A stretch of 64,000 nt of DNA, taken from Yponomeuta sedellus. Its lineage: Eukaryota > Arthropoda > Insecta > Lepidoptera > Yponomeutidae. Under the pieces are notes generated by a model. The model was not told the DNA's origin. It worked only from the letters and a program-made list of their open reading frames with translations, and ran no database searches. A program made the translations under genes and the position numbers. Of the stretch, positions 1 to 41,420 are shown one piece after another (position 1 is the stretch's first letter; the number at the start of each line of letters is the position of its first letter). The DNA lies in the NCBI GenBank assembly GCA_934045075.1, contig OW203749.1, positions 5,422,804 to 5,486,803 of the forward strand. Direction: 5' to 3'.

Positions 1-650
1 CGATGTGGCGCCCGACGCGGTGAGAATTACACACAAATTGAAGTCTCAGAACACTAACTTTACAATCGGGAGGTCGTAGGTTGGAATAGTACGGGCCTGG
101 ACACATGAGTGCTGCACCGCGGCGCCCCTCGCCTGCGACGTTCACGGCGCCCTCCGGCTGGCCGATGTGGCGCCCGACGCGGTGAGAATTACACACAAAT
201 TAAAGTCTCAGAACACTGACTTTACAATCGGGAGGTCGTAGGTTGGAATAGTACGGGCGTGTACACATGAGTGCTGCACCGCGGCGCCCCTCGCCTGCGA
301 CGTTCACGGCGCCCTCCGGCTGGCCGATGTGGCGCCCGACGCGGTGAGAATTACACACAAATTGAAGTCTCAGAACACTGACTTTACAATCGGGAGGTCG
401 TAGGTTGGAATAGTACGGGCCTGGACACATGAGTGCTGCACCGCGGCGCCCCTCGCCTGCGACGTCCACGGCGCCCTCCGGCTGGCCGATGTGGCGCCCG
501 ACGCGGTGAGAATTACACACAAATTGAAGTCTCAGAACGCTGGCTTCTCAATCGGGAGGTCGGGGATTCGTATAGTGCGGGCATGGACACAGGAGCGTTG
601 CATCCTAGCCGTCTGCAAAGCGGGGCCGTCCAAGCGTCCGCGGCGCCCTA
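1..650 (+). repeat. 162-bp tandem array of a Lrrk exon 3' end and its donor site
   Basis: Units start at about 1, 163, 325 and 487 (period 162), and a fifth, decayed unit follows to about 650. Each unit contains the same exon-like end, reading A P L A C D V H G A L R L A D V A P D A, then GCG|GTGAGA, then about 100 bp of intron-like sequence. The array runs off the left edge, so the copy attached to the real exon is probably outside the window or at position 1-20. Confidence 0.85.
461..505 (+). CDS. Lrrk: LRRK exon end preceding the kinase exon (one of several copies)
   Basis: Reading DVHGALRLADVAPDA and ending at GACGCG|GTGAGA in phase 0, this joins in frame to the next exon to give VAPDA-LLLDVEES, which resembles the linker just before the kinase domain in LRRK proteins (a VAPD/APDL-type motif). 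At least three further copies of this exon end lie upstream (donors near 20, 182 and 344). Only one can be the natural exon end and the sequence does not show which; the left-most copy is the more likely one. The 5' border of the exon is not visible. Confidence 0.45.
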
Positions 651-723
651 CGGTTTTATTTTCCCGTTTAAAAGTGCCTCTACACTACTGGAAGTTGGCC
701 GTCAGCTCTGCGTATTCAGGCAA

Positions 724-976
724 CTAAAAAGAAAAACTAGGCGTTAATAGCAGTGTGAAAATAACTTTGCTAAATTGCGCCAAAAATCCCACAAGCACCA
801 TGCGGATATTTAATGCACCGCTCCCTCCCACTTTTTCAAGCAGAATCAATACGCGAACATACCACCACCGACACCAGTACTTGTGTGAGAAAATGTGCAT
901 TCTCGGTGCATTAGCTAACATCATGGTGCTTGTGGAATTTTTAGCGGAATTTAGCAAAGTAATTATCACATTTTAA
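724..976. repeat. Short inverted-repeat element
   Basis: Two arms of about 90 bp, near 755-830 and 895-975, are near-complementary; both include forms of 'aaattt(a/c)gc' and 'caccat'. The middle carries accaccaccgacaccagtac. It looks like a small foldback transposon; no protein is supported. Confidence 0.5.
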
Positions 977-1008
977 TGCTATCATGTCAAAATTCTAATG
1001 TTACACTG

Positions 1009-1371
1009 TTATCAACCCTTTTATGTCCCCACTGCTGGGGCACGGGTCTCTTCCTGCATTGCAGGAAGGTTAGGCCATACTCCACCACGGGGGCCAAGTC
1101 CGGGTTGGTGGAGGATTGTAAGACAGAGGTGGGCCTTACTGTCAGAAGTTATCAAGCCGCCCATAAGGCCTCTAACATGGCTTAACGACTGCAATTAGAT
1201 GACAGCCGGCACCAACGGTTTAACGTGCCTTGCGAAGCACGGAAGCGCTCGGAAAAACGCCACTAGCGGCAGTCACGGGACGGTCACCCATCCTGCACCT
1301 GACCGCGCCTGTTGTTGCTTAACTCAAGTGATTGATTCCAATCACTCGGTTCGCCTAGGCCACGAGCGCTT
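1009..1371 (-). repeat. 5S rRNA-derived SINE, nearly full-length copy
   Basis: Read on the minus strand, it starts with a short hairpin (gagtgattggaatcaatcac), then carries the blocks TTAAGCAACAACAGGCGCGG and GGATGGGTGACCG, which match the internal promoter region of 5S rRNA (A box, intermediate element, C box). The body continues through gcttcgcaaggcacg and ccggcaccaacgg to a 3' part with 'tccaccaacccggacttgg' and 'ccccagcagtggggacataaa'. About a dozen other copies and fragments lie in this window. Confidence 0.8.
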
Positions 1372-1449
1372 ATCTGTGATGTAGTGAATTGTTATACTGT
1401 ATCTATGATTTAATGAATAAATATTATCTTGAAAATGAATATTTTTCAG

Positions 1450-1638
1450 CTCCTTCTGGACGTGGAAGAGTCGTGCCGAGCTCGCTGGGAGGAGATCACG
1501 CGCGGGCGCATCGTCGGCCGGGGCGCCTTTGGCACAGTGCTGGCCGCCACGTGGCGGGGCCGCGCCGGCGCCCTCAAGGCGCTCCAGCCAGTGGCGCCCG
1601 AGCCCCGGGCGCCGCAGCACGCTCACAATGCATACAAG
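1450..1638 (+). CDS. Lrrk: LRRK exon: kinase N-lobe, glycine loop and catalytic lysine
   Basis: The acceptor is tatttttcag|CTCCTT and the donor AAG|gttagt; 63 codons, phase 0 at both ends. It begins LLLDVEESCRARWEE and contains the glycine-rich loop GRGAFGTV (residues 24-30 of the joined product) and the lysine of GALK (residue 43), which binds ATP phosphates in kinases. It ends HAHNAYK. GC content is much higher than in the flanking introns. The next exon follows after nearly 7 kb of intron containing a 4.5-kb LINE. Confidence 0.88.
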
Positions 1639-1663
1639 GTTAGTGGGTCCTCGAGAAGTATTT

Positions 1664-2060
1664 GTAGTTATACTATTTTTATTTTTAATGCACTAACCCG
1701 TGCTAAGGACAATTTTAAAAAACCTATTTAGAGGCTAAAAATTCCACCCATGCCATGTGGGTACAGCGATATCATTCCGATGTAAAAACCTCACTGCAAA
1801 GTAGGTACTCGGGGCTGCAAGTGATGCAATTTACTTCAGCTAGATGTCGCTGCCTGTACGTAATACAGAGAATAGTGTAAAGACGTTCGAAATTTCACTG
1901 ATGCCGGTGAGTCGCCCATTAGCTCAGTTGGAAAGAGCGCTTGCACGGATAGCCAGAGGTCGCGGGTTCGAATCCCGGCATGGGTGAAATTTTTAGCCTC
2001 TAAATAGGTTTTTAAATTTGTTCCTTAGCACGGGTTAGTGCATTAAAAATAAAAAAAGTG
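1664..2060 (+). repeat. tRNA-like SINE with an inverted copy of its tail at the 5' end
   Basis: The + strand carries a full tRNA-like cloverleaf (about 1918-1987): acceptor CGCCCAT/ATGGGTG, D arm AGCTCAGTTGG.AGAGC, T arm CGGGTTCGAATCCCG. It is followed by the conserved tail (tttttagcctctaaatagg ... ccttagcacgggttagtgca). At the left end, 1672-1755, the same tail is present in inverse orientation, so the whole copy can fold back on itself. Confidence 0.75.
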
Positions 2061-2294
2061 TATTCTATAGTGTTGTTCGACACACTTTTTTTCGGCGCCC
2101 TTTTAAATCCATAATGTGGACGCGTCCGTAAACTGACGCTCACACATTACGTCTCGTTGGAAAGGGCATAAAACGACGATTCTGTGGATACGAAAAACGC
2201 TAGTATCGTTGAAGAAAAAAAACCCGAAAGTGCGAAGAGATGCCGTTTTTTTTGTAAGCTGATGATTGTCCAATATGTAAAAATAAATAAATAT

Positions 2295-2525
2295 ACTATT
2301 TTTATTTTTAATGCACTAACCCGTGCTAAGGACAATTTTATTTTTAAAGTAGGTAGTCGGGGCTGTAAGTGATGCAATTTACTTAAGCTAGATGTCGTTG
2401 CCTGTACGTAATACAGAGAATAGTGTAAAGAAGTTCGAAATTTCACTGATGCCGGTGAGTCGCCCATTAGCTCAATTGGAAGAGCGCTGGCACAGCCAGA
2501 GGTTGCGGGTTAAATAGGTTTTTAA
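2295..2525 (+). repeat. tRNA-like SINE, internally deleted copy
   Basis: Same family as 1664-2060, with the inverted tail at 2299-2335. The A-box part (agctcaattggaagagcgc) is present. The B box is cut: gttgcgggtt runs directly into aaataggttttt, so the T arm and part of the tail are lost. Confidence 0.7.
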
Positions 2526-2985
2526 AATAAATAAATATTAAATGTAAAAATGACTTAAATATAAAAACACCTCTACGTTTATGATGCGAATCGAAAGAAT
2601 GGCCAAAAAATAACTCTTCTTAACTAACATAGTATTTTAAAAGTAAGGAATAGCGTGAAAATAATAATATTAAAACCATGGTATTTTTTTGTAAATTAAT
2701 TAATTAAATGCTCAAAATGTGACCAAAATGTCTTACGCAAATCGCCAATCTTTTAATGAGTCCGCTGCCTGTTGATTTTTTTATCATTAAATGCAGAATA
2801 TCTAACTTTTAAAAATAAGATAAATTATTCCCTTAGCAAAATACCGTATATTTAAGGTACTTCCCCTTCATGTTCCATAACTTTGGGACGCCCTGTATAG
2901 ATAACATCCAAGACCCGAGACAAACTAGAAAAGTTCGCTTCCTGTTTTGACCCGGCCGGGGATCGAACCCGGTTTAAAATAATAA
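2526..2985. other. AT-rich intron sequence without recognised features
   Basis: No gene or clear repeat is seen, apart from a stretch near 2898-2960 (aacatccaagacccgagac) that recurs at 44700-44750 and so belongs to an interspersed repeat. Confidence 0.5.
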
Positions 2986-3014
2986 GTATGCGTCTTAGAG
3001 ACTCGCTCCCCAGT

Positions 3015-3376
3015 AGACTCTGGGGCCGTGACGCGCAAGCCGCCCCCAGTAGAGTAGCCCCCAGGGGCCGAAACGCGCAAGCCGCCCCCAGTAGAGTAGC
3101 CCACAGGGACCGTGACGCGCAAGCCGCCCCGAGTAGATTAGCCCCTGGGGGCCGTGACGCGCAAGCCGCCCCCAGTAAAGTGGGCGGTGACGCGCTAGCC
3201 GCCCCCAGTAGATTAGCCCCCAGGGGCCGTGACGCGCAAGCCGCCCCCAGTAGAGTAGCCCCCAGGGGCCGAAACGCGCAAGCCGCCCCCAGTAGAGTAG
3301 CCCACAGGGACCGTGACGCGCAAGCCGCCCCGAGTAGATTACCCCTGGGGGCCGTGACGCGCAAGCCGCCCCCAGT
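3015..3376 (+). repeat. 42-bp tandem array, left part (about 9 units)
   Basis: The unit is of the type gtgacgcgcaagccgcc + cccagtagagtagcccccagggg, about 42 bp. It is the same array as 7931-8514, from which it is separated by the inserted LINE. One shortened unit near 3176 (agtaaagtgggcggtgacgc) is identical to the sequence that restarts the array at 7931. Confidence 0.9.
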
Positions 3377-3719
3377 AATAATAATAATAATAATAAAATA
3401 TGTTTATTTTCAGTATCAAACTTAAAGTAGGTTACAATTTGTGTGGGAGTTTCCTTTTAAGTAAGAATTACCTGTGCCAGGAAAACTCCCGCTCTTCCTA
3501 ATTGGGTAGCATTAATTAAAGTGATTATAGCTGAGAATGAAATCAAATTTAGCATGCAAAAAAAAAAAAAAAATTAAAATTAAGTAAACAACAAACTCCT
3601 TTAAGAGAATCGAAAAACAATACATTGCTATTATTATACTATTTTCAAATTGTTTGAAGAAGTTTTAAACAATGAAAACATAATTAGAATTTATCATGTT
3701 GAAACTATATAATAAGTAT

Positions 3720-3858
3720 AGATATGATATGATACGATACGATACGATACGATACGATACGATAAGATACGATACGATACGATACGATACGATACGATAC
3801 GATATGATATGATATGAATGATACGATACGATAGAATACGATACGATATGATATGATA
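3720..3858. repeat. (GATAC)n/(GATAT)n pentanucleotide microsatellite
   Basis: More than 20 units, with a shift to gatat at both ends and one interruption (gatatgaatgatac). It lies in the 3' untranslated part of the LINE, about 70 bp after the ORF2 stop, and may be an older 3' tail preserved in this LINE lineage. Confidence 0.85.
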
Positions 3859-3929
3859 TCGAAACCAGGTACAAAATCCATATGAAATTTAAAATATATG
3901 TATAATGTAAAATAAACTTCTATATTTAT

Positions 3930-6900
3930 TTATGCGTTTCGTAGTAGAAGTTTTTCAACATCGTTGTAGCTTAACGAGTCTAGCCATTTCGTTATTATAC
4001 TTCTGCATTCGAAATGAGATTTTTCATAAATATTGTGCATTTTATTTATTTTATTATAAAGAAAAGATGATTGCGCGCTGTACTGCATCCTAGCAAAATT
4101 AGTTCGTGTTAGATGTGTTTTAGCTACTAAGTCATTTCTCCTTTTACTTTTTGAATTGAGGTTATAAGGTAGATTTTTGTGTTTTTTTAACAGGATTTGC
4201 AATATATATAATTTTCTAATGGATAAGAGGTGGCTTTCTTTATATAAACTTTCTGTGGAATATCGTATTTTCTTAAAATACATTACCTTAATAAGACCAC
4301 GCTGCACTCGTTCTAGTTTCAGAAGTTTAACCTTGGACGCACCGCCCCAGATCGGAATACAGTAAACTAGGACCGATTGTACTAGGGCGATATATATTTC
4401 ATTTAGTTTATTTTTTGGTAAACCTTGTTTGTTAAGGACGTTGGAATTTCGAGGCACAATATATCTTAGTGTTTTAAATATCCAAACCAGTTTTCTTAAC
4501 CTAGTTGCGACTTGCTCCAGATGTAAATGCCATGATAGTCTGTAGTCAATTATAACGCCAAGGTACTTAGTGTGTGTGACTTTTTCCAGTTTAGGACAGT
4601 TACATATTCTGTCTGCGGTGGTATCGTTACATCTATGGACATTTATTTGGAAGTCGTTCTGTGGTTGTCCTCTCACATTGAGGCTGAAACAGATGTAATT
4701 TGTTTTTTCTGTATTTAATGTGAGAAGGTTGTTATCCAGCCAATGTGACACCAGAGTCATACCCCTTTCAGCGCTTTCTTTAACAGAGTTCCAGGTATCC
4801 CCGTAGAACACAATGGCTGTGTCGTCAGCATAGGCAAAGGTTTTGCCGTTTTCTATACTTTGATTACAGAGATCGTTAATGTATACCAGAAATAATGTGG
4901 GTGCTAGTACGCTCCCTTGTGGAACTCCATAGGTTACGTCTGCGTCTTCACTTGTGAACTGGTCCAGTTTAACCCTTTGTTTCCTATCTGTTAGGTAATC
5001 TTTGAAAAGTTCAAGGGGAATACCTCTGATTCCCATTGCTTCCAGTTTGCGAAGGAGGATTGGGAGAGATACGGTGTCGAAAGCTTTTTTAAGGTCCAAA
5101 AATACTGTTAAACATTTCGATCCTTTGTCGAGTTCCTCTACTACAAGAGTAGTTAGAGCAGTCACCGCGTCTTCGGTAGATTTTGACTGTCTAAAACCAA
5201 ATTGTGCAGATGATATTAATTTATAATTTTCTAAGTAATTTAGGAGTCTTATGTTAATTAATTTTTCAATAATTTTGGAGATGGACGGTAATACGGAAAT
5301 TGGCCTATAGTTGCTGACTTCGTCTCTCTCTCCACCCTTAAAGACAGGCGTGACTATGGACCTCTTAAGTTGTTCGGGGAAAGTGCCCTTTGCAAAGCAG
5401 AGGTTGGCCAAGTGAGATATTATGGGGACAACTTCCGTAGAAGCCTGTTTTAAAAATTTTGTTGTTATGTTGTCATACCCAGGGGCACTGTCCGATTTAA
5501 GATTCATTAGTGTTCTGTGTACTTCCTCAGGGTCTGTGTCTAAAAGTGCAAAAGAACTTGAGTGGGTCACTAATTCTTTTAGGTATTCATTTTGGTCTAT
5601 AATTAGTCTACACTGTATTTTTTGTGCCAATTCCTTACCTACATTAGTAAAGTAGTTATTTACATGTCTGGTTGCTTCTAATGGTGATGGTTTTGTATTA
5701 ATTAGTTCGTTGTTTTGGTTTTTGTTTTTATGGGAATATGTAATAGATTTTATATTTTTCCACAGTGTTTTGTTATCTTTAGATTTTTCAAGTAGTTCTT
5801 TTTCATATTTTCTTTTGATTTTTTTTACAAGGTTGTTACAATGGTTTCTATAGCGTGAGTAGGTAATTTTTAAGACTAGATTTAAGGGATCTTTACGTAG
5901 TGCTTTTTGTAATTTATTTCTGTTTGTTATACAGCGGAGAATGCCTGGTGTAATCCAGGGTTTTATTATTCGTTTACTTTTTGGGATTGGAATATGTGCA
6001 GTATTTTTATTGATTGAGTCTGTTAGTTTTTCTATTAAACGGTAAGTTATTTGATGCGGGTCATCAGAAAATAAAAGCTCCGGTAAGTTAGCTTCCTGTA
6101 GCGATTTTATTGCATTAGCAAAATCTAATTTAGTTGTAACTTTATGCACAGAATGTTTAATTTTTTGTTTAGTTATTTGTAGAAACGTTGTGTAATGATC
6201 TGTGGTAGTTGTGTTTAAGATTGCAATAAATGCCGAGAATTTATTTTTCTTTATGTTTAACATGAAATGGTCTAGGCAATTTTTTTCCCTAGTGGGTAGA
6301 GTATGACCCGGTAGGATACCCAATTCAGATAGGGCGTTCAGGTAATATTGTCTATTTTTATACTCGGAAGTTGTTTCCGTGGGCTTTGGTCTAATGTTTA
6401 TATTTATGTCTCCCGCGATAACTAGGTTTTTTTTATATTTTAGCGTTTCTAGGTGTGTAACTAACGAGTTTGTGAAATTTTCTGAATTGGGGGTAGAGGG
6501 TGATCGGTAGATGCATAGTATTGTATTGCCTAATATGTCTATCTGCAAACAAGATGAATTCGTTAGCTTGATTTCCTTAACTTTATGATTTATAGAGTCC
6601 TTTATGTAGACAGCTACTCCATCGTTTTGATTTAATTGGGATATTGTGCTATAAGAGGTGTAATTTTTTAGTAGAGGTAAAGGTTTAGTTTTGTCTAATC
6701 TACATTCCGTAAAGATGATGATGTCAATTTCAAAATTTAAGCTTGCGAGGGTTAGCAGGAAGTTATCAAAATTTCGATATATACTTCTAATATTTTGTGA
6801 AATAATTTTTAGGTCTGCTTTTTTAGTTTGTGTGTATTTAGGAAGCTCAGAGCAGTCACATTCAATTGCCCGTGCTATAACTAAGCTATCAATGTCTTTT

Positions 6901-6956
6901 ATAGTTTGTAAAGCCTCATTCATTTTGTAGTATTTCAAATCTTTTAGTCGTTGCAC
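3930..6956 (-). CDS. LINE ORF2: endonuclease and reverse transcriptase, intact
   Basis: An open frame of 1008 codons. The N-terminal third is an AP-type endonuclease (ISQNIRSIY near residue 53, FTECRLD near 85, IAGDININI near 185, TDHY near 255), which nicks target DNA. The middle is a reverse transcriptase with SNYRPISVLPSISKIIEKL, FGFRQSKSTEDAV, FLDLKKAFDT, GVPQGSVLAPTLFLVYIND and the catalytic FAYADDTAIVF. The C-terminal part (HTKYLGVIIDYRLSWHLHL, then PIWGG) is typical of the Jockey/CR1 group. No frameshift or stop was seen. The start Met is the first in the frame; a start further in, before the endonuclease, cannot be excluded. Confidence 0.9.
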   Translation of the reverse strand: MQRLKDLKYYKMNEALQTIKDIDSLVIARAIECDCSELPKYTQTKKADLKIISQNIRSIYRNFDNFLLTLASLNFEIDIIIFTECRLDKTKPLPLLKNYTSYSTISQLNQNDGVAVYIKDSINHKVKEIKLTNSSCLQIDILGNTILCIYRSPSTPNSENFTNSLVTHLETLKYKKNLVIAGDININIRPKPTETTSEYKNRQYYLNALSELGILPGHTLPTREKNCLDHFMLNIKKNKFSAFIAILNTTTTDHYTTFLQITKQKIKHSVHKVTTKLDFANAIKSLQEANLPELLFSDDPHQITYRLIEKLTDSINKNTAHIPIPKSKRIIKPWITPGILRCITNRNKLQKALRKDPLNLVLKITYSRYRNHCNNLVKKIKRKYEKELLEKSKDNKTLWKNIKSITYSHKNKNQNNELINTKPSPLEATRHVNNYFTNVGKELAQKIQCRLIIDQNEYLKELVTHSSSFALLDTDPEEVHRTLMNLKSDSAPGYDNITTKFLKQASTEVVPIISHLANLCFAKGTFPEQLKRSIVTPVFKGGERDEVSNYRPISVLPSISKIIEKLINIRLLNYLENYKLISSAQFGFRQSKSTEDAVTALTTLVVEELDKGSKCLTVFLDLKKAFDTVSLPILLRKLEAMGIRGIPLELFKDYLTDRKQRVKLDQFTSEDADVTYGVPQGSVLAPTLFLVYINDLCNQSIENGKTFAYADDTAIVFYGDTWNSVKESAERGMTLVSHWLDNNLLTLNTEKTNYICFSLNVRGQPQNDFQINVHRCNDTTADRICNCPKLEKVTHTKYLGVIIDYRLSWHLHLEQVATRLRKLVWIFKTLRYIVPRNSNVLNKQGLPKNKLNEIYIALVQSVLVYCIPIWGGASKVKLLKLERVQRGLIKVMYFKKIRYSTESLYKESHLLSIRKLYILQILLKKHKNLPYNLNSKSKRRNDLVAKTHLTRTNFARMQYSAQSSFLYNKINKMHNIYEKSHFECRSIITKWLDSLSYNDVEKLLLRNA

Positions 6957-7179
6957 CCTTTTTTTTAATATTTGTTGCTTTAATCAGACTCTTTATCCAT
7001 CCTGTAATAGAAAGTTGCTCTATCAGAGACTTGTAATATATATAATTATGTGTATGTAGTGAGTATATAATACTAATAATAATAAATATAATATACAATA
7101 TATTAAGTATATGATAGACACATAAAGATTGCTTTGTGCAAGTTGTACAAAACAGAGAATACAAAATTTGTTTTTCTAG

Positions 7180-7927
7180 TCAATCTTCCTGTAGAAGTTT
7201 ATGGACTTGAGCTTCGTTAGTTATTGGTATAGCTGGGGAAGTTTCATTTTTTCTTAAATAAATTTTACCAAAAGAGGTCCAGCAGAACTTGTAAGACTTC
7301 GACTTTGCTAGGTCTCTTGCCAAAAAATGCAGTCGCGCTCCTTTTGCCGTCAACTGCTCGGAAATGAAGATCGGGGTGTCTTCGTTTTTCTTGAGGCCCA
7401 GGTGTTTTGCGCGTAGTTTATCTTTGTTTTTGGCATTGAAGGATTTGCTCGCTTTCAAAATCTCGCTCTTGAGAATTGTTGAGGAAGTTTCGATAATTAT
7501 AGGTGGATTGCTTCCTTCTTTCTTGCTTTTTAAGCGATAGATATCTTTGATATCAGATTTTGAGATATCGCATTTAATGGTTTTCGAGAGGCACATAACC
7601 ATTTCTCTAAGCTCTCCAGAGCTCTCGTTTTTCATCCTTGGAACGTTTTTCAGTTCTAGGCTGGTTTTCCGATTTCCTCTCTGCATATCCTCGATTTTTT
7701 CTTCAAGAAGAATAATGTGCTCCCTGTCTTTTTTTGCTTGGCTCTCTAGTAGATCTATTTTTCTTCTAAAATCTTCATTCTGGCTAGTCAAAAAAGCAAT
7801 AGAATTCTCTATATTTTTATTCGTCTGCTGCATTTCCCTAAGGGTAGTATTGATTTTCCTAATTTCACTTTCTTGATCTTCCATCAAAGACTTCATCATA
7901 GTCCTCATCTCTTCCTTAAAAACGTGT
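7180..7927 (-). CDS. LINE ORF1: coiled coil plus FP25K-like domain (5' truncated)
   Basis: The frame enters the element as VFKEEMRTMMKSLMEDQ and gives about 248 residues before the stop. The first half is a strong coiled coil (KKIDLLESQAKKDREHIILL-type heptads), as expected for trimerisation. The second half (LKNVPRMKNESSGELREMV ... IIIETSST ... IFISEQLTAKGARLHFLAR) resembles the C-terminal domain of baculovirus FP proteins, which is found in several insect LINE ORF1s and probably binds RNA. No start codon precedes the array junction except the internal Met residues; upstream the frame simply reads through the 42-bp array, so the natural N terminus has been lost. Confidence 0.75.
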
Positions 7928-7930
7928 AAA

Positions 7931-8514
7931 GTGGGTAAAGTGGGCGGTGACGCGCTAGCCGCCCCCAGTAGATTAGCCCCCAGGGGCCGTGACGCGCAAG
8001 CCGCCCCCAGTAGAGTAGCCCCCAGGGGCCGAAACGCACAAGCCGCCCCCAGTAGAGTAGCCCACAGGGACCGTGACGTGCAAGCCGCCCCGAGTAGATT
8101 AGCCCCTAAGGGCCGTGACGCGCAAGCCGCCCCTATTAGAGTAGCCCCCAGGGGCCGTGACGCGCAAGCCGCCCCAAGTAGAGTAGCCCCCAGGGGCCGT
8201 GATGCGCAAGCCGCCCCGAGTAGATTAGCCCCCAGGGGCTGTGACGTGCAAGCGGCCCCTAGTAGAGTAGCCCCCAGGGGCCGAGACGCGCAAGCCGCTC
8301 CCAGTATGGTAGCCCCCAGGGGCCGTGACGCGCAAGCTGCTCCCAGTAGAGTAGCCCCCAGGGGCCGTGACGCGCAAGCCGCTCCCAGTAGAGTAGCCCC
8401 CAGGGGCCGTGACGCGCAAGCCGCCCCCAGTAGAGTAGCCCCCGGGGCCGTGACTCGCAAGCCACCCCCAGTAGAGTAGCCCCCAGGGCCGTGACGCGCC
8501 AGCTTGTCCCCCAG
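7931..8514 (+). repeat. 42-bp tandem array, right part (about 14 units), ending in the acceptor of a Lrrk exon
   Basis: Units of about 42 bp (gacgcgcaagccgcccccagtagagtagcccccaggggccgt type, written here as a pattern) run without gaps up to 8514. The last unit, cgtgacgcgccagcttgtcc followed by cccag, is itself the 3' splice site of the exon starting at 8515. Most units carry an internal cccccag, so the array is a row of look-alike acceptor sites. Confidence 0.9.
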
Positions 8515-8682
8515 GCGGCGGTGTCCCGCTGGGAGCGCGAGCCAGCCGCGGCGGCGTGCCGCGCCTACTGCGCGCTGCGGCAGGAGCTCGCCGTGCTCAC
8601 CTCGCTGCGACACGCCAACGTCGTGCCGCTGCTGGCCGCCTGCTGCGCGCCGCTCGCGCTGCTGCTGCCGCTGGCGCCGCGG
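8515..8682 (+). CDS. Lrrk: LRRK exon: kinase alpha-C helix region
   Basis: Acceptor ttgtcccccag|GCGGCG, donor CCGCGG|gtgact; 56 codons, phase 0/0. It reads AAVSRWEREPAAAACRAY, then LRQELAVLTSLRHANVVPLL; the Glu of RQEL (residue 87 of the joined product) is the expected alpha-C partner of the ATP-site lysine. It ends LALLLPLAPR, the hinge-proximal strand. GC content is extreme, with long runs of GCC/GCG/CTG codons. A CA-rich microsatellite begins directly after the donor. Confidence 0.88.
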
Positions 8683-8685
8683 GTG

Positions 8686-8747
8686 ACTCACACACACACA
8701 CACGCGCAGTCACACACACGCACACAAACGCACGCGCGCACACACAC
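8686..8747. repeat. (CA)n microsatellite
   Basis: Imperfect ca/cg dinucleotide run directly after the exon donor. It is interrupted by the solo LTR and resumes after it at 8990. Confidence 0.9.
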
Positions 8748-8993
8748 TGTGATAGGCAAATAACATCATCACGCCACATGCCTTCACGTATCTCACGTAT
8801 CAGGAAATATAGACAACTCCTCCCAAGGCACGTAGGATTATTATATATAAGCTAGTGTAAGACTAGAAGAAGGGAGTTAAGAGACTGGAGTCTTAACGAT
8901 GTATTAATTAAAATGTGATCAACCGTTCCTGTTGTTTCCCTGCTGCGCCGCCGTCCTGCAACCACTCCACCCACCACTGGGCATACTTCAACA
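8748..8993 (+). mobile_element. Solo LTR of a Gypsy-type element
   Basis: About 246 bp, starting TGTGATAGGC and ending ACTTCAACA. It is nearly identical to the LTR at 51050-51284, which is attached to a pol remnant. It is inserted in a CA microsatellite, so the short target duplication cannot be defined. A solo LTR forms when the two LTRs of one element recombine. It contains tattatatataagc, a possible TATA element. Confidence 0.85.
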
Positions 8994-10808: not shown

Positions 10809-10814
10809 AGTACC

Positions 10815-32210: not shown

Positions 32211-33317
32211 CTTCAGGCTTGCGATACGACCTCCGCGGACGTTTGGCCTGGGAGTGCTCCGGTCTATTCCGCATAGACATTATGGGCTCTTCAGCAGGGC
32301 GTTTGTTAGGTGTGAATATTTTATGAGTGCCCCCGGCTTTCTGTAAAAAGGAACCTAGTGCATCTGCATTAAAAAGCTCAGCGTTTGTGGGAGGTATTTT
32401 GCGTAAATCTTCTTTGATAAAGCGATCTTTCACACCGGACAGAATACTGTCACGTCGTTTTTGAATGACGTCAGCGCGCCTCCCACAAACTAACTGAAGA
32501 AATCTTCTGAAACCTTCATGTAATCGCTTTTCTCGGAAAATAGGCCGCTGATCTTTTCAAACAGCAAATCTGCATTCAAAGCTGGCCCAGTCGACCACTG
32601 AATTAATTCCTGTAGATTACTCTTGAGCTGAGCGTTTTGTTGAATGAGTGCATGCGTCATTGCGCCCAGCGACCTATCAAGCGATTTTAGCCAAGTCGAG
32701 TTAGGGTCGTGATAACGCAACTCGGTGTTCACGTCCAACTCGTAAAACCCCGGTCTGGCGAGGTACTTCTTCTCCGTTTCTACATACCTAACCCTTTCCC
32801 ACTTATCAGAGTTGAAATGGTGCAATTTAGTGAGCAGTTCGAGTCTCGACTCGTTAGAATTCTCGACGGTCGGTTCTTTCAAATTTGTGTTTATATGGAA
32901 ATCGAACGATTTGACCGTTACAGGCATTTGGGCGTGCGATTGGGGTTTATTCAAAAACGGTTGCTCTGATAACAGTGAACTTTTAAGATTCTCACTGGGA
33001 TGCAAGGAAATTTCAGAATCACTGTCGTTATGAGAATTTCCAGAAAAAAATTGACCGTTACTTTTCAAGTAGTTTAAAATTTCACTTACTTGATTTGTCA
33101 ACGATTCGAATTTTTGATCGTTAGTTGACTTCGCCTTCTTTTTCTGGTCTTTCTTCCTGCGTCGTGAATTCTCCGAACTGGAACTCGATGATGACGATTC
33201 GCTGGAACTCGAAGAGCTCCTAGGACGCGGCAAACGTTCAGCACGTTTTTGCGGTAATCGTTCAGCACGATTATCTCGCTCCGAGCGAGTTGCGTCACAG
33301 TCAGGAGTCTTATCCAT
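32062..33317 (-). pseudogene. DIRS Gag-like protein, in two frames
   Basis: The N-terminal part (32490-33317, 275 residues) begins MDKTPDCDATRSERDNRAER, has a long Ser run (SSSSSSESSSSSSSSENS) and ends with SGLFSEKSDYMKVSEDFFS. A second part (32062-32433) is Lys/Arg/Pro-rich (RPRRSYRKPEVELDPVPSTS) and would bind nucleic acid. The stop at 32490 separates them; whether this is natural or decay cannot be told. DIRS Gag proteins are poorly conserved, so the assignment rests on position and composition. Confidence 0.6.
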
Positions 33318-33471
33318 ATTTTTGGAAAACGAGCTCTTCTGGAGAGCGTTTTCTAAAAATGTTCAATGCTATAAAATACACGAAATAAAATGTAAGAAAA
33401 AGTAAAAAAGAAATCGAACAGCAACGCTGTTATCTTACCGAAAGGGATGTTCACTCGACGAAAGTCGATGC

Positions 33472-33655
33472 CAATGTGAGGAGCCGCGCTGCGCGCTACC
33501 GGCAAGCTGGCCTCCCCCCTCCGCGCCACGGCGCCCGGCGCGGGGGAACCGCGCGGGGCGGGGCGGAGGGGGGACGGAAGGGGAATGTTCCACGAGACGC
33601 AAGTAGTGCTGTCTCACTTTAATTAGGTCTCGAATAACGGTTCAGAGCATATAAT
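33472..33655 (-). repeat. DIRS inverted terminal repeat, right
   Basis: Inverted partner of 28387-28569; caatgtgaggagccgcgctg ... ggtctcgaataacggttcag. Confidence 0.9.
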
Positions 33656-33727
33656 AAAAATATTACAATAGAGAATATTGTTATCTCATCTCATATCTCG
33701 TCTCGTCTTATCTCGTAAGTGTCATGG

Positions 33728-33915
33728 AAGCGCTCATGGCCTAGTAAAACCGAGTGATTGGAATCAATCACTTGAGTGCAGGATGGGTGGACGGCCCGTG
33801 ACTACCGCCAGTGGCACCCCGAGCGCTTCTGTGCTTCGCAAGGCACCTTAAGCCGTTGGTGCCGGCTATCATGTATTGGCAGTCGTTAAGCCATGTAGAG
33901 GCCTTATAGTAAGTC
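33728..33915 (+). repeat. 5S-SINE copy lacking its A-box block
   Basis: Starts gcgctcatggcctag and keeps ggatgggtgg, but the ttaagcaac...ggtcagg block is deleted (atcacttgagtgcaggatgg). It ends near gccatgtagaggcctta. Confidence 0.75.
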
Positions 33916-34181
33916 TTATATTCAAGCCGGGTGGCTTAGCGGTGGTCCCCACACTAGGCCAAGCCTGTATCGTGGGGGCCGAGAAATGATTACTACAATT
34001 ACGTTTTTCAACCGTTGACACTCAATCAAGTTACTTGACAATACCGAACAAATAGGTGATTTACTAAAATGTTGATGGTACAAATGCAAACTTTTAAGCT
34101 AGAAAAGTTTTTAACATTTAAAAGATGAAATTAAAACTATGTTAAGGGAACATACATAATATTTATGCTAGCAAGCAAAAA

Positions 34182-34210
34182 TGTGTGTGTGTGTGTGTGT
34201 GGTGTGTGTT
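34182..34210. repeat. (GT)n microsatellite
   Basis: tgtgtgtgtgtgtgtgtggt, about 13 units. Confidence 0.9.
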
Positions 34211-34598
34211 GGAAACACTAAGTATAGCAACACTGTCGCTCCTTAACTTTTTGACTTTTCTCTTGTACGTGGCGCCTAATGATAAGGACATTGCTGTAAT
34301 AATTTTAGTGTGTTCACCGCTGGTGCATTAAACTGAGGCAAAGCAGACCCTGTGAGTTTTAAATCCACCTACAGTCCACTGCCAGCCCAACAGTGTGTGT
34401 GTAAATTATTATATTTTAAATAGCAACTGTTATGTACTGCTAAATGTGTAACCCATGTCTCAATTGGCCTTTTTTTGCAACTACGTAATGAGATGATTTA
34501 TGCAGCGTCCAGTGGCATCCCCACTACACTAGATGGGTGAAGGGACCACTCCGACGAAACCCGATGTCTATGCTCACAATAAATATTCATATTCTTAA
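34211..34598. other. Intron sequence with one repeat fragment
   Basis: 34495-34560 is the same repeat as 16110-16160 (gatgatttatgcagcgtcca, gatgggtgaagggaccact). The remainder is not recognised. Confidence 0.5.
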
Positions 34599-35209
34599 GG
34601 GCCGTTTTCTCCATTTGCTGCGCTAAACTGGATTTCATAATGATCATGCTTGGTCGAAGTTAAAAAAATAGATTTATGACCATCCGATTTCTCCGGTAAC
34701 TTTTTGATCTGGTTCACGAAATCCAGTTCTTGTTACAGATTAGACAAAAAACGCTAGGATTTGAGGGTGGTAACACTTTTTTATTTTTTTATTTTGAAAC
34801 GCATGTGTCAAAAATGTCGAGAATTCTGTGATATTTCCGGTTATTCTGTGTAATTTTAAAACCTTTTTCGGCAATTTTTAATTTTGTTTCTGGCGCGGTT
34901 TGTTTTGTGCGAAATAAATTTTGAACGGCTCTTAAAACGAAAAAGAGGTCCAACATTCACCAATAGTGAAAACAATATTTGGTAAAGTAAAACCTTTAAC
35001 GTCTTTTGGCAGCTGATATCTGCCATTTGTCTGACTGTTAATCTGGTTTTAGAAGCTAATCGTCCAATATTGGCCGTTCAGATATTTTAGTTTAAACTTT
35101 GGTTTACGATGTTGGGGAAATCCAATTTGTTATTGTAATCTCGATTAGGAGTCCAAAACCGGATTTAGCTTGACGTAATCTAGATTTGGTTCTATGGAGA
35201 AAACGGCCC
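34599..35209. mobile_element. Harbinger-like MITE ending 21 bp before a Lrrk exon
   Basis: Terminal inverted repeats GGGCCGTTTTCTCCAT / ATGGAGAAAACGGCCC, with TAA on both sides (34596-34598 and 35210-35212), the target duplication expected for PIF/Harbinger. Length 611 bp, no coding capacity. Confidence 0.82.
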
Positions 35210-35230
35210 TAAATGTCTTCTGCTTCTCAG

Positions 35231-35364
35231 GCTGTATCGTGTACCAGTGGTCGGTGCGGTCTCGCCGCCAGACTGGCAAGCTGGACTGCAGCAAGCTGGC
35301 TCCCTGCTCCGAGAGCCTTCAGTCCATCGCGCTAGACGATCGGCTCAGCGAAGATAACTGCCGG
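35231..35364 (+). CDS. Lrrk: LRRK exon: WD40-like region (GCIVYQWSV)
   Basis: Acceptor ttctgcttctcag|GCTGTA, donor TGCCGG|gtgagt. Two bases complete a Gly codon, then 44 codons, out in phase 0. It reads CIVYQWSVRSRRQTGKLDCS, then KLAPCSESLQSIALDDRLSE. Its branch point must lie in or at the edge of the preceding MITE, since only 21 bp separate the two. Confidence 0.85.
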
Positions 35365-35426
35365 GTGAGTGTTTTTTACCCGACTGCGCCCAAGCCCAAA
35401 AAGGGGGTAATGTGTTTGACTCGTAT

Positions 35427-35665
35427 GTATGTACAGTCTGTTAGCTTTTAGAATATACCTCGGCTACGAAATCAAAAACCGATTATATTGCAATAAGGTA
35501 AGGTTTATTTCGTATTATTATTTATAACTTTACATAACTTTTCAAAGTAGTGAAGAAAAGTTTTAAGCAGAGCAGTAAGTAGTGTTACACTCGTGTGCTT
35601 TCGGCGAAAACCGAAGCCTACTCTAGAGCCCGAGGTATATTTTAAAAGCTAACAGACTGTATGTC
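35427..35665. mobile_element. MITE with acagtctgttagctttta ends
   Basis: Ends acagtctgttagcttttag and aaaagctaacagactgt are inverted; TA flanks fit. A second copy at 45516-45985 is interrupted by a SINE, and a fragment lies at 10815. Confidence 0.8.
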
Positions 35666-35829
35666 AGTATTTCCGATTCTATGTTCTGTAATCTTTATTT
35701 TATTACGGTAACAAACAGTTATTTATTTAAAATTTAGGAAAACTATTGTCTTGCCTTAATGATGATGAAAATGATGAAAAGAAACATGAAACAACACAAA
35801 GTATTATCAAAAGATAATATTATTTATAG

Positions 35830-36190
35830 AAGCGCTCGTGGCCTACGCGAACCGAGTGATTGGAATCAATCACTCGAGTTAAGCAACAACAGGCGCGGTC
35901 AGGTACGGGATGGGTGACAGCCCCGTGACTGCCGCTAGTGGCATTTTTCCGAGCGCTTCCGTGCTTCGCAAGGCACGATAAGCCGTGGCTGCCGGCTGTC
36001 ATATAATGGCAGTCGTTAAGCCATGTCAGAGGCCTTATGGGCGGCTTGATAACTTCTGACAGTAAGGCCCGCCACTGTCTTACAACCCTCCGCCAACCCG
36101 GACTTGGCCCCCGTGGTGGAGTATGGCCTAACTTTCCTGCGATACAGGAAGAGACCCGTGCCCCAACAGTGGAGACACAAGGGTTGATAA
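35830..36190 (+). repeat. 5S rRNA-derived SINE, full copy
   Basis: gcgctcgtggcctacgcgaa, hairpin gtgattggaatcaatcac, ttaagcaacaacaggcgcgg, gggatgggtgacagcc, ending acaagggttgataacg. Confidence 0.82.
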
Positions 36191-36321
36191 CGATAATAAC
36201 GAATATTATTTATGTAATATTTTGAACTTAACTGATAGACTTAATAGTGCCGAAATGTATACTATCGTAAACTGACTCATAAATCCTTAAGCAGAGGTCG
36301 GATTTTGACAACATTTCAATC

Positions 36322-36480
36322 GCCCATTGAGTCGCCCATTGGCTCAATTGGTAGAGCGCTGGTACGGATAGCCAGAGGTTGCGGGTTCGAATCCCGGCAT
36401 GGGTGAAATTTTCAGCCTCTAAATAGGTTTTTAAATTTGTTCCTTAGCACGGGTTAGTGCATTAAAAATAAAAATAGTGT
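36322..36480 (+). repeat. tRNA-like SINE, 5'-truncated
   Basis: Starts at cgcccattgagtcgcccatt, has the full cloverleaf and tail, and ends aaaaataaaaatagtgt. Confidence 0.82.
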
Positions 36481-36780
36481 AATCATGTGGGTACAGTGAT
36501 ATCGTTCCGATGTTAAACCTAACTGCAAAGTAGGTAGTCGGGGCTGTAAGTAATGCAATTTGCTTAAGTCAGATGTCGCTGCCTGTACGTAATGCAGAGA
36601 ATATTGTAAAGAGGTTCGAAATTTCACTGATGCCGTGAGTCTCCCATTGGCTCAATTGGTAGAGCGCTGGTACGGATAGCCAGAGGTTGCGGGTTCGAAT
36701 CCCGGCATGGGTGAAATTTTTAGCCTCTAAATAGGTTTTTAAATTTGTTCCTTAGCACGGGTTAGTGCATTAAAAATAGT
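36480..36780 (+). repeat. tRNA-like SINE, full copy
   Basis: Head atgtgggtacagtgatatcg ... gcctgtacgtaatgcagag, cloverleaf 36640-36712, tail ending gcattaaaaatagtgtag. With 36322-36480 it forms a tandem pair. Confidence 0.82.
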
Positions 36781-36889
36781 GTAGTCATTTATTTATTTAA
36801 AATTTAGGAAAACTATTGTCTTGCCTTGAAAATGATGAAAAGAAACATGAAACAACACAAAGTATTATCAAAAGATAATATTATTTATA

Positions 36890-37245
36890 GAAGCGCTCGT
36901 GGCCTAGGCGAACCGAGTGATTGGAATCAATCACTCGAGTTAAGCAACAACAGGCGCGGTCAGGTATGGGATGGGTGACAGCCCCGTGACTGCCGCTAGT
37001 GGCATTTTTCCGAGCGCTTCCGTGATTCGCAAGGCACGATAAGCCGTGGCTGCCGGCTGTCATATAATGGCAGTCGTTAAGCCATGCCAGAGGCCTTATG
37101 GGCGGCTTGATAACTTCTGACAGTGAGGCCCGCCACTGTCTTACAACCCTCCGCCAACCCGGACTTGGCCCCCGAGTATGGCCTAACCTTCCTGCGATAC
37201 AGGAAGAGACCCGTGCCCCAACAGTGAAGACACAAGGGTTGATAA
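36890..37245 (+). repeat. 5S rRNA-derived SINE, full copy (duplicate)
   Basis: Same as 35830-36190, with a short deletion in the cccgtggtggagtatgg part. Confidence 0.82.
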
Positions 37246-37379
37246 CGATAATAACGAATATTATTTATGTAATATTTTGAACTTAACTGATAGACTTAAT
37301 AGTGCCGAAATGTATACTATCGTAAACTGACTCATAAATCCTTAAGCAGAGGTCGGATCTTGACAACATTTCAATCGAC

Positions 37380-37800
37380 TTGTTGTCTTTTCACGAGTGT
37401 CGTATAAAGGCTGTATAAAGTCAGCACAAATGCCACCAAAACAATACCAGATAAAAAAGAAAATGAAACAGGCACGAAACAGTGGCGGAATCTGTTTGTG
37501 ATGCCGCCACAAGACCATTGTGGGTGTGGCAAATGTAAAAAGGCTCTGAAGTCAGTATGTGCTAGGGTGGGCGACCCCAGTGCCGTTATTCTGTCACTAC
37601 CTTATAGTAACACTCTATTGTGCGGAGTTAATTTAAAAAAAGAAAATAATAAATAAAGTTTTGAAGTAAGTTTTTTAATTTTTTCAGTCACACACAAAAG
37701 TGTTTTCGTTAAAGAAATTAAATAAAAGAATTTCCAAGTTTCGAAGTCGGTTTTTCTAATTTTTTATAATTTACCATTTTTACTTACTTATATTCTCTTC
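37380..37800. other. Intron sequence without recognised features
   Basis: Mostly AT-rich. A stretch at 37490-37620 (gatgccgccacaagaccatt ...) has even composition but no continuous frame. Confidence 0.45.
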
Positions 37801-37804
37801 GCAG

Positions 37805-37924
37805 GTGACCGCAATGTGTACTATGAAGACTGAAGTGTATATCGGCACCGCGTGGGGTTGCATCGTGGTGGCCGAGGCAGCCACGTTACGTCCCATCACC
37901 ATATTCCGACCCTATGAGACTATG
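37805..37924 (+). CDS. Lrrk: LRRK exon: WD40 blade (VYIGTAWGCIVVAE)
   Basis: Acceptor ctcttcgcag|GTGACC, donor ACTATG|gtgaga; 40 codons, phase 0/0. It reads VTAMCTMKTEVYIGTAWGCI, then VVAEAATLRPITIFRPYETM. The pattern (strand, vyIGTa.G.iv) corresponds to the blade that in vertebrate LRRK reads as an 'IGTGGG' core near the C terminus. Confidence 0.88.
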
Positions 37925-38231
37925 GTGAGATTCAGGGGCGTAGCTACCGCCGTGTCTGCCGTATCAATTATACGGGGCCCCCGGGCCACGGGGGCCCCCA
38001 AAGTGTGTAAGAAAAAAAAAAACTTTCTAATTTATTTTATTTTACAAATGACAAAATTCTATAAAGCAATTCGTTTTTTTCCCGCCTTAAGCGTGCGTTC
38101 AAAAGTTGGCAACACGTGGGGGGTAAAGTTTCGTGAAAAATGTTTACCCCCAAGAGCCTCCAAACAAATTTTTTATACGGGGCCCCGACAAGTTACGCTA
38201 CGCCACTGGTGAGATTACAAATTGCGTAGAG

Positions 38232-38603
38232 GCGTAGAGTCGCTCGTAGCCCCGGCTGCCTGAGTGATCTTAAACGATCACGAAGGTTAATGAACACCGG
38301 GCGCGTTCAGTGCTTGGGTGGGTAAACCGTCTATAACTGACGCTAGTGGCATTTTTCCGGGCGGTGCCGTGCTTCGCAAGGCACGCTAAGCAGTTGGTGC
38401 CGGCTGCCGTCGATAGATGGTAGTCGTTAAGCCGGGTCAGAGGCCTTATGGCTGCTTGGTAACTTCTGACAGTAAGACCAGTCACTAGTCTTGCAATCCT
38501 CCACTTGAGACTTAGTCCCCGTGGTGGAGTATGGCCTAACCTTCCTGGGATGCAGAAAGAGACGCGTGCCCCAGCAGTGGGGACGTACAAAGGGTTGATA
38601 TAG
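38232..38603 (+). repeat. 5S-SINE, variant closest to 5S rRNA
   Basis: tgatcttaaacgatcacgaagg, then ttaatgaacaccgggcgcg, ttcagtgcttgggtgggt: closer to 5S rRNA (gatcac...gttaagcaac..cgggcgcgg..cagt.cttgg.tgggtgacc) than the other copies. The 3' part runs to gggacgtacaaagggttg. Confidence 0.8.
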
Positions 38604-38991
38604 ATAAACATTTGTATCAATACGCGTTTTAAAGCCGATTTAAGGTATTTTAACTAAAAATTGATCATTTCAGAAAAAAACACTGGACGAAACTTGATAA
38701 TTCTGTATCTGTAAAATTTTATCGAAAACGACCAGGATTGGTCGAATATATAATGACGTCACAGGTCAGTAAATAAAGCGGTGCGAGAACCCGAGAGTTG
38801 ACATTCCGTTTGTTTGTGTACTGACAAGTGACGTCACTAATTGCTGTGCGCCGATTTTTATTTGCTTTTTTACAAAAAATACACAAAACGTCTAAAAACT
38901 ATCACTTTCTGAGCCCTTACTGAACACCAACGAAAAATTATAGTAGGTTTTCAGAAACTTGTCTTTACTTTACAAGTCAAACTAGGTGTCC

Positions 38992-39440
38992 ATTATACTA
39001 TTTTTATTTTTAATGCACTAACCCGTGCTAAGGACAAATTTAAAAACCTATTTAGAGACTAAAAATTTCACCCATGCCAGGTGTCCATTTCAAAATCTAG
39101 ATCATATTGGAGAAAAAATGGACCAAACTTAGTATTTTCAAAGTCCTTAATTAACAGAGCTTACATAATTTTTACAAAACTCATGCCTTTTATACATGCT
39201 TAAATTCCAGACATCATTGTCATCTAAATAATCCTTAATATTGTAGTAGCCCTTTTGGCACAAAGTGTAACATAATATTGCATAAGAGGTTCGAGATTTC
39301 ACTGATGAGTGAGTCGCCCATTAGCTCAGTTGGAGCGCTGGCACGGATAGCCAGAGGTCGCCGGTTCGAGTCCCGGCATGGGTGGAATTTTTAGCCTCTA
39401 AATAGGCTTTTAAAATAGTCCTTAGCACGGGTTAGTGTAG
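38992..39440 (+). repeat. Composite: inverted SINE tail, LINE 3' end, SINE body
   Basis: 38998-39078 is the SINE tail in inverse orientation. 39078-39270 is an antisense copy of the 3' end of the LINE at 60652-60860 (gtgtccatttcaaaatctag ... tagcccttttggcacaaag). 39278-39440 is the SINE tRNA-like part and tail on the + strand (agtcccggcatgggtggaat). The LINE piece thus sits between the two inverted arms of one SINE-like unit. Confidence 0.78.
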
Positions 39441-39457
39441 GCCGTCACCACACAGCA

Positions 39458-39725
39458 CACGCGGACTTGTGCTGTGTGGTTTCGGCCTAGAGAATAGCAC
39501 CAACCCAATTCTTCCCGCGGGTGTCGTAAATGGCGACAAAGGGACACAAACCGAGGGGTGGGCAGCAGCGCCCCCTGCAGTACAATTCCACCGAACTGCG
39601 ATGCCCAACCCGCATGCCGAGCGTGGGATTGTGGGCATTACCCCCTATGATAGCACAACGTGGCGCTCTTTAGGGGAGGGCTATGTACATCAGTGGACTA
39701 GTATAGCCTGACGACGACTTAAGTC
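39458..39725 (-). repeat. 'ctgctggacatagccc'-type SINE, minus copy
   Basis: Reverse complement of 40290-40545: gtgctgtgtggtttcggcct ... gggcagcagcgccccctgca ... gggaggggctatgt(a)c. No gene; the open frame here is chance. Confidence 0.75.
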
Positions 39726-40073
39726 TTCCTCTATTAATAATAATAAATCTTTATTGATAGCCACATACAATCAATCAGCTTAAATATACACGAAGTAGGA
39801 GTGAACAGATGGCTGACAGGGAATTAAGTTGGTGAGTCTTCTGTCTCCCAAGCTAGAATGATCTGTATTATGGGAGCCAGATATCCTCTGTACAACAGTG
39901 GACGGCCTTTTATCACAAACATATAAGAAATGCAGTGACTTATCTTAATATTAGGTATGTAAAAAAAATAAACAGGAAAAAGTGGATGTGTTTGTTTTCG
40001 TAGGTGAATGATTGTGTGTGTGTTTGTGTGTGCGTTATGTGTTAGTGTGTAATTGATCTCCTGTTGTCTCCAG

Positions 40074-40187
40074 GTCCGCGCCATAGTGCCGCTGCATCCG
40101 CTCAAAGGGGCTGACAGCGGGTGTATGATCGCCACACTCGGAGGCGGGTACCGCCCGCTGCTGCAGCGCTTCGTGCCGCAGTCGCAG
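40074..40187 (+). CDS. Lrrk: LRRK exon: penultimate coding exon
   Basis: Acceptor tgttgtctccag|GTCCGC, donor TCGCAG|gtaaga; 38 codons, phase 0/0. It reads VRAIVPLHPLKGADSGCMIA, then TLGGGYRPLLQRFVPQSQ. The end of this exon and its donor are repeated over the next 1.2 kb. Confidence 0.87.
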
Positions 40188-41420
40188 GTAAGATTCCCGC
40201 TTTTTCATTTGTACATACATTACATTTCATAAGGAGTGAATAAAGCGGTGCCGCCGCAGGTAAGACTCTTGATTTTCATTTCTTCCTCTTCTTCAGGCTA
40301 TATTAGTCCACTGCTGGACATAGCCCTCACCTAATGAGCGCCACAGCGCAAGGTTGTGCCGTCATTGGGGGTAATGCCCATAATCCCCACGCTGGGCATG
40401 CGGGTTGGGCTTCGCAGTTTGGTGGAATTGTACTGCAGGGGGCGCTGCTGCCCACCCTCCGGTTTGTGTCCCTTAGTCGCCTTTTACGACACCCTCGGTA
40501 AGAATTTGGGTTGGTGCTATTCTCTAGGCCGACACCACGCAGCAGCGATTTTCATTTGTACATACATTATATTTCATAAGGGCTGACTGCAATGGTTCGC
40601 GCCGCAGCCGCTGGTAAGATTCACGTTATCCATTTGTACATACTTTACATTTCATGGGAAGTGACGGTTAGTGCCGCAGTCGCAGGTAAGACTGGTTTTT
40701 CATTTGTACATACATTACATTTCATAATGAGTGACTGCAGTGGTTCGTGCCGGAGCCGTAGGAAGACACCATTGTTAATCGACTTAAAAAAAGGAGGAGG
40801 TTATGAATTCGACGGGTAAATACTTATTTCGGTTGCACGTATTACATTGTATATTCCATTGAATGCTACCCCTTGTGCCGCAGCAGCAGGAAACACTCCC
40901 TTTGTTTTATTTGTACATACCTTACATTTCGTAAGGAGCTGACAGCGGGTGTACAATCGCCACACTCGGGGGTGGGTACCTGCAACGGTTCGTGCCGCAG
41001 CCGCAGGTAAGACTTCCGTGTTTCATTTATACATACATTACATTTCATAACGAGTGACTGCAAAGGTTCATGCCGCACTCCCAGTATGCTGATGGTAATG
41101 CAGCAAGAACACTAAAAAGTTTGACAAAATTTGTATTTTTCCTGTCAAATCTTTGCTCTTGAGACCTACAGGGGTACCAGACATGTCTCGGTCACATATG
41201 CCGCCAAGTTAGCCAGTGGTGAACAAGACTCGGTCGGCTTCATCTCTGTCGCGGTCGCTATGTAAGCGTCAAGACATTTCGGGCTCGACAGAGCATTTGA
41301 CATTTTTGTAAAGAGATGGGCGTTTATCGTTCGTGGCATGCTAAGAGAACAGGTAAGACTTCCGTTTTTCATTTGTACATACATTACATTTCATAAGGTG
41401 TAATAAGGGTTAGTGGCAGC
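40166..41420 (+). repeat. ~80-bp array of the penultimate exon end and donor (8-9 units)
   Basis: Units begin (g/c)ttcgtgccgcag(t/c)cgcag|gtaaga, followed by tttttcatttgtacatacat, tacatttcataaggagtga. Copies: 40166, 40246, 40594, 40663, 40743, 40870, 40987, 41067 and 41340. The copy before 40987 includes a longer exon part (gctgacagcgggtgtacaat). Several keep a good donor (cgcag|gtaaga at 40187, 40258, 40683, 41008); others have lost it (gtag|gaagac). Confidence 0.92.
40283..40548 (+). repeat. SINE inserted into the exon-end array, with target duplication
   Basis: ttcttcaggctatattagtc ... ggcgctgctgcccaccctcc ... ctctaggccgacaccacgc. It is flanked by gattttcattt on both sides (40272-40282 and 40548-40558), which is part of the array unit, so it inserted by retroposition after the array unit had formed. 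Confidence 0.85.

Follow-up and report, generated by a model that had tools for sequence, protein, structure and literature searches.

Tandem arrays at exon edges of a lepidopteran Lrrk gene resemble the mirages of amphioxus

We analyzed a stretch of 64,000 nucleotides from Yponomeuta sedellus (assembly GCA_934045075.1, contig OW203749.1, positions 5,422,804 to 5,486,803; hereafter, the window), which contains the 3' part of an Lrrk gene. The exon-edge arrays in the window are real. Six tandem arrays lie at five Lrrk exons, and they belong to a known kind of structure, the mirages of amphioxus, in which minisatellite-like tandem repeats extend over exon-intron boundaries (PMC3087553, PMC3902484). 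They probably arose by tandem duplication in very GC-rich exons and were tolerated since the extra copies are spliced out. A previous reading of these letters without database searches (the sequence-only reading) had proposed that arrays meet splice sites at five Lrrk exons; this holds. The array at exon C abuts the acceptor site, and an exon part of its unit was not demonstrated. What is new is that one insect gene has six such arrays, distributed over five of its exons, together with signs that the same gene was hit repeatedly across Lepidoptera. The DNA evidence is one assembled sequence, and other species are represented by predicted proteins alone.

Exons B to Q of the Lrrk gene (Table 1) were spliced in silico into a product of 690 aa without an internal stop, and every intron between them is bounded by GT and AG. 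Exons C, D, H and P begin exactly where the sequence-only reading had placed them (8515, 9487, 17829 and 40074). The product matched the Pkinase and Beta-prop_LRRK2 domains, and LRRK1 was its best match among solved structures. One search for relatives gave 73 proteins. A full-length search gave the best 120 of 295 matches, among which the 27 top-ranked were Lrrk proteins of named Lepidoptera with 59-72% identity.

To locate the arrays, 80 bp around each of the 32 exon edges was compared with the whole window, and junction copies within 6 kb were counted. Such copies were found at six edges, namely the donors of exons A, D, H and P and the acceptors of C and H. At five of these, all but the C acceptor, the unit contains both exon and intron sequence. 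The other 26 edges had no junction copy within 6 kb; the donor of C matched CA-type repeats only. A CA-rich array at 9004-9112 (28-34-bp units, 3.2-3.5 copies) lies within an intron and was disregarded because it resembles a microsatellite. The count also leaves out arrays with 2 to 2.6 copies, for example 15252-15413, 22965-23027 and 24777-24857.

Splice-site dinucleotides are present in many, but not all, of the copies. GT is found in all four junction copies of array A, which is cut by the start of the window, so that the authentic end of exon A may lie further upstream. Array D comprises 22 copies including the authentic one (one further row was spurious), 20 of which carry GT, and the exon part of its unit encodes the catalytic-loop codons ..YRDLK. 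At the acceptor of exon H, AG is present in all four copies, the first of which is slightly short; at its donor, 15 of 18 junction-spanning rows have GT (the authentic row included, some rows weak). Array P has nine such rows with the authentic one, and seven retain GT. The last copy of array C reaches the acceptor AG at 8514; its unit includes this AG and matched the intron end with a score of 33 (shuffle maximum, 16). An exon-derived part of the C unit was unsupported, as its score of 10 was equalled or beaten in 632 of 1000 shuffles.

Table 1. Features of the window. TRF, Tandem Repeats Finder; LINE, long interspersed nuclear element; ORF, open reading frame.
Feature	Position	Strand	Remarks
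Lrrk gene, 3' part	1450..41807	+	16 exons B-Q, stop in Q
Exon A (before kinase exon)	only 3' end in window, inside array A	+	reads ..LADVAPDA up to donor
Exon B	1450-1638	+	
Exon C	8515-8682	+	
Exon D	9487-9627	+	
Exon E	11275-11377	+	
Exon F	15923-16032	+	
Exon G	16604-16726	+	
Exon H	17829-18018	+	
Exon I	22049-22168	+	
Exon J	23305-23395	+	
Exon K	24543-24671	+	
Exon L	27038-27148	+	
Exon M	27860-28011	+	
Exon N	35231-35364	+	
Exon O	37805-37924	+	
Exon P	40074-40187	+	
Exon Q	41730-41807	+	ends with stop TAA
Array A	1..602	+	162-bp unit over donor; 3.7 copies in window (TRF); junctions 19, 181, 343, 505
Array C	3022..8503 (3022-3377 + 7942-8503)	+	42-bp unit, intron side of exon C acceptor; TRF
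Array D	9587..10810	+	56-bp unit, 40 bp exon end + 16 bp intron start; TRF
Array H acceptor	17156..17888	+	186-bp unit over 3' splice site, 4 copies; TRF
Array H donor	17990..21420	+	irregular junction copies; limits by eye; no TRF report
Array P donor	40170..41470	+	irregular ~70-80-bp unit; limits by eye; TRF only 2.4 copies
LINE splitting array C	3378-7930	-	non-LTR, long reverse-transcriptase ORF, RVT_1 match
Perfect (AATG) microsatellite	11621-13930		577 units, E-F intron; TRF
Retroelement in M-N intron	28400-33650 (limits by eye)	-	RVT_1 + RT_RNaseH; GC-rich inverted ends
Modular-serine-protease-like gene	47157-55362	-	exon GC 0.52-0.57
DDE_3 transposase ORF	53633-54424	+	inside neighbouring protease gene

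The sequence-only reading had supposed that no such pattern was described, and this does not stand, since amphioxus mirages are just such structures. Mirages are described in the Adh, troponin C and PGBD5 genes and in the globins BflGb6 and BflGb9, with units of 10-160 bp and unstable lengths (PMC3087553, PMC3902484), and RT-PCR (reverse transcription PCR) suggests that they leave splicing undisturbed (PMC3087553). The Lrrk arrays share with them units over the exon-intron boundary, the involvement of both 5' and 3' boundaries, and many copies with AG or GT. They differ in that a single insect gene carries six arrays, with as many as 22 copies, at five of its exons, in the signs of recurrence across an order, and in being known from sequence alone. 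Internal tandem repeats at exon-intron boundaries of human segmental duplications, which can create introns (PMC2812944), are likewise boundary minisatellite expansions able to alter gene structure; as reported there, they have ~30-bp units in recent paralogs and some alter transcripts, whereas the Lrrk arrays lie in a conserved gene whose frame is intact. As in the accounts of intron gain by tandem duplication in potato RdRp (PMC4974935) and Drosophila (PMC2891723), exon sequence has been duplicated with its splice signals, but the Lrrk copies sit inside existing introns. Very GC-rich exons adjoining tandem-repeat introns are also known from avian genes, where the repeats are short, G-quadruplex (G4)-forming and fill introns, and are not described as junction-derived (PMC6792250); no G4 motif was found in the Lrrk arrays. 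No paper on such junction arrays in Lepidoptera was found among the listed titles and abstract openings of open-licence papers.

Unrelated units had been taken as a sign of separate events, and the comparison of units bears this out. Of 15 unit pairs, 14 scored at or under the maximum of 100 shuffles, and the remaining pair (H donor and P) was a single point above it (score 11, shuffle maximum 10). A single shared repeat behind all arrays was therefore rejected. The arrays might instead be ordinary minisatellites that overlap the dense exon edges of Lrrk by chance. When arrays were placed at random in 1-41807, the probability that an edge fell in a terminal unit was 0.09-0.24 per array, which is not small, and the gene and window were chosen post hoc. 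However, the product of these chances was 7e-5 for the five complete arrays and 1.6e-5 with array A, figures that are themselves post hoc because the arrays were hand-chosen and the limits of the H donor and P arrays were set by eye. Further, the junction itself lies within the units at five edges, and exon-end copies recur in other Lepidoptera, so that we regard chance placement as very unlikely. The proposal that edges are favoured beyond the placement of ordinary minisatellites (six of 32 edges) is thus upheld with that reservation.

The sequence-only reading had further suggested a shared cause, and GC-rich exons are the part of that suggestion that gained support. GC contents in the four array-bearing full exons are 0.80, 0.79, 0.82 and 0.68, compared with 0.54-0.78 in the 12 other exons (one-sided p=0.006, n=16, within one gene). 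GC at third codon positions is 0.96-0.98 in C, D and H and 0.82 in P; among array-free exons it is 0.93 in G and 0.90 in M. Coding GC in Lepidoptera is reported as the highest of four insect orders and attributed to GC-biased gene conversion (PMC10978632). Beside array-free edges, the first 25 bp of intron have a GC content of 0.43 and the following 25 bp one of 0.32-0.35. As GC falls within 25-50 bp of these edges, we rejected the view that exon GC is due solely to local GC-biased gene conversion.

Lepidopteran Lrrk exons are very GC-rich islands in AT-rich introns, and tandem duplications may start in these islands more often. A short segment across a splice junction would duplicate in tandem and then lengthen by unequal exchange and conversion. 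A duplication wholly within an exon would alter the protein and usually be lost. If the duplication crosses the junction, the frame would stay intact, as would the authentic site on the outer side, so that the extra copies would become intron and be spliced out. Such a selective filter would gather surviving arrays at exon edges with no special attraction of splice sites. We infer, then, GC as the cause, selection as the filter and splicing that ignores the copies. Consistent with this, the 690-aa frame is intact when the outer splice sites are used.

We compared 33 Lrrk proteins from 32 lepidopteran species, assigned by name, with 91 lower-ranked Lrrk proteins of the full-length search (P0101-P0191; 79 from named other insects and 12 without a species name). 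BLAST protein self-comparison gave no internal repeats, probably hiding off-diagonal matches, and our own seed-and-extend scan (>=12 aa, 70% identity) was used instead. Near-identical internal copies were detected in 8 of the 33 lepidopteran proteins (8 of 32 species) and in none of the 91 others (Fisher p ~1e-5, with related species not being independent data points). The carriers were Phthorimaea, Plutella, Spodoptera frugiperda, Operophtera, Bicyclus, Achroia, Helicoverpa armigera and Tuta. In Bicyclus, exon L is copied, with 13 identical copies; in Achroia, the copied segment lies in an N-terminal, ankyrin-like exon. The count of 8 of 32 is possibly too low because correct gene models hide intronic arrays, as the model of the window does, and it could also be inflated by annotation or assembly error. 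One nematode Lrrk (P0045) among the 73 relatives of the other search, outside the comparison, holds a tandem copy.

Nine duplications could be mapped to the gene model of the window, on the assumption that its exon borders are conserved and with the Plutella exon I segment trimmed by hand. In eight of them the end falls no more than about 2 aa from the 3' end of an exon; the duplication mapped in Bicyclus is a 37-aa, exon-length segment whose last residues are unaligned. The starts are more scattered, with six at 6-26 aa inside the exon, one at ~5 aa inside and two at the exon start. Donor-side events outnumber acceptor-side events both in the window arrays and in other Lepidoptera, which reflects either annotation bias or a true asymmetry.

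Several results weigh against tandem duplication in GC-rich exons followed by a selective filter. Three GC-rich exons are array-free (K, 0.78; M, 0.76; B, 0.73), whereas P (0.68) has an array, and inside one gene exon or intron status is inseparable from GC. The combined content of Gly, Ala, Arg and Pro, which averages 0.368 in the 33 lepidopteran Lrrk proteins and 0.247 in the 91 others, does not distinguish the lepidopteran proteins that have copies from those that lack them (p=0.58). Donors dominate (four donors and one acceptor, plus the abutting array C), a bias not expected from a simple filter. This last point would be expected if a process coupled to splicing or transcription, such as R-loops, polymerase pausing or G4 structures, made exon borders, chiefly donors, prone to duplication. 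The four donors among the five junction-spanning arrays, the ends of the nine mapped duplications at or near exon 3' ends, and the GC skew of +0.25 in array D are in line with such a process. However, no G4 motif was found on either strand across the six arrays, the skew of the other five was small (-0.07 to +0.12), the acceptor of exon H carries an array too, and the donor excess may stem from the way gene predictors build exons. We consider a coupled process unlikely, and R-loops, which the sequence-only reading had also put forward, or G4 as the main cause were rejected.

The interferon-induced 6-16 minisatellite carries several donor sites. If the Lrrk copies were kept by selection because they act as decoys for splicing or regulate it, this would explain why most of them have GT or AG. 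In array P, and only there, the donor hexamer is within the top 5% of 6-mers by conservation, and in the H donor array the exon side (0.96) and the donor hexamer (0.98) are conserved above the intron side (0.82). Yet GT was not unusually conserved in the four arrays tested, where 38-82% of dinucleotide windows were conserved at least equally, and the final two exon bases are altered in most copies of array D. Homogenisation of an array would by itself preserve the sites. Strong selection on decoy sites, the remaining suggestion as to a shared cause, was accordingly rejected, and a role for selection of this kind is highly improbable.

The copies bear marks of their own history. Array D has a mosaic structure. 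At most variable sites, copies 1, 6, 10 and 22 have the same bases as the exon; copies 11 and 17 do so at some, and the remaining copies represent another haplotype. One variant is common to copies 3 and 8, five units apart. The two unit types and this variant point to exchange between copies. Array C is split by a LINE, whose flanks (3175-3372 and 7935-8133) form a direct repeat with ~194 of 199 columns matching, which is either a target-site duplication of unusual length or the result of an earlier duplication of the array. Array P is interrupted by an insertion at ~40281-40552 that has relatives at 39470-39717 and 45581-45838. On the intron side of the H acceptor unit, 78 bp were compared with the window, and 66 bp of these match 60601-60666 in reverse orientation (89%), a segment judged by eye to be the terminal part of a LINE ORF. 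Mosaic and insertions fit age and exchange, not assembler stutter. An artefact of assembly or annotation, in the window or in other species, would accord with the arrays being known here from one assembled sequence, with the conflict between the two Helicoverpa armigera entries (P0093 with copies, P0098 without) and with the suspicious identity of the 13 Bicyclus copies. It is nevertheless most improbable, as the differences among copies in the window follow patterns and other insertions are present in two of the arrays.

The neighbouring modular-serine-protease-like (ModSP-like) gene served as a control. TRF reported no minisatellite at its exons in the window. Among the 120 ModSP-like matches listed, 66 were judged lepidopteran, 52 were from other species or without a species name, and two were left out; internal repeats occurred in 4 of the 66 and 3 of the 52. 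Of the four lepidopteran cases, one (P0258, Cydia fagiglandana) is exon-end-like, one is a coding minisatellite and two are domain- or gene-scale. Duplication events numbered 14 per 70.9 thousand aa in lepidopteran Lrrk and 2 or 4 per 34.7 thousand aa in lepidopteran proteases (p=0.11 or 0.45, depending on the event count, with several proteins per species in both sets). The shift in Gly, Ala, Arg and Pro content was smaller in the proteases (0.259 vs 0.223). Because the protease rate was not significantly different, the idea that Lrrk is proven exceptional was rejected and the gene is not established as unique.

Whether the window reflects a wider tendency can be stated only tentatively. A lineage-wide lepidopteran process might keep duplicating GC-rich exons at their ends, chiefly on the donor side, and have hit Lrrk repeatedly at different exons in different families, a possibility that we hold to be rather doubtful. 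If true, Lrrk would be a natural laboratory in which to study how arrays at exon edges, copies of exons and possibly new introns originate. It has been proposed that new introns and exons can stem from junction-spanning duplications, of which the clear cases among the literature that we found are those of amphioxus and human segmental duplications. Possible recurrence across an insect order rich in public genomes would make the roles of GC, recombination and splicing testable, as well as the neutrality of the arrays for splicing and their possible conversion into exons or introns. Further, lepidopteran gene models may contain false exon copies.

Other repeats in the window include the retroelement of the M-N intron, which we take to be a DIRS-type element, and the DDE_3 transposase ORF, presumably mariner-like. 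Nine Rfam tRNA matches across the whole window apparently represent one tRNA-derived repeat family. An element of ~245 bp is present in two copies with 95% identity (8741-9000 and 51050-51284), the first of which adjoins exon C.

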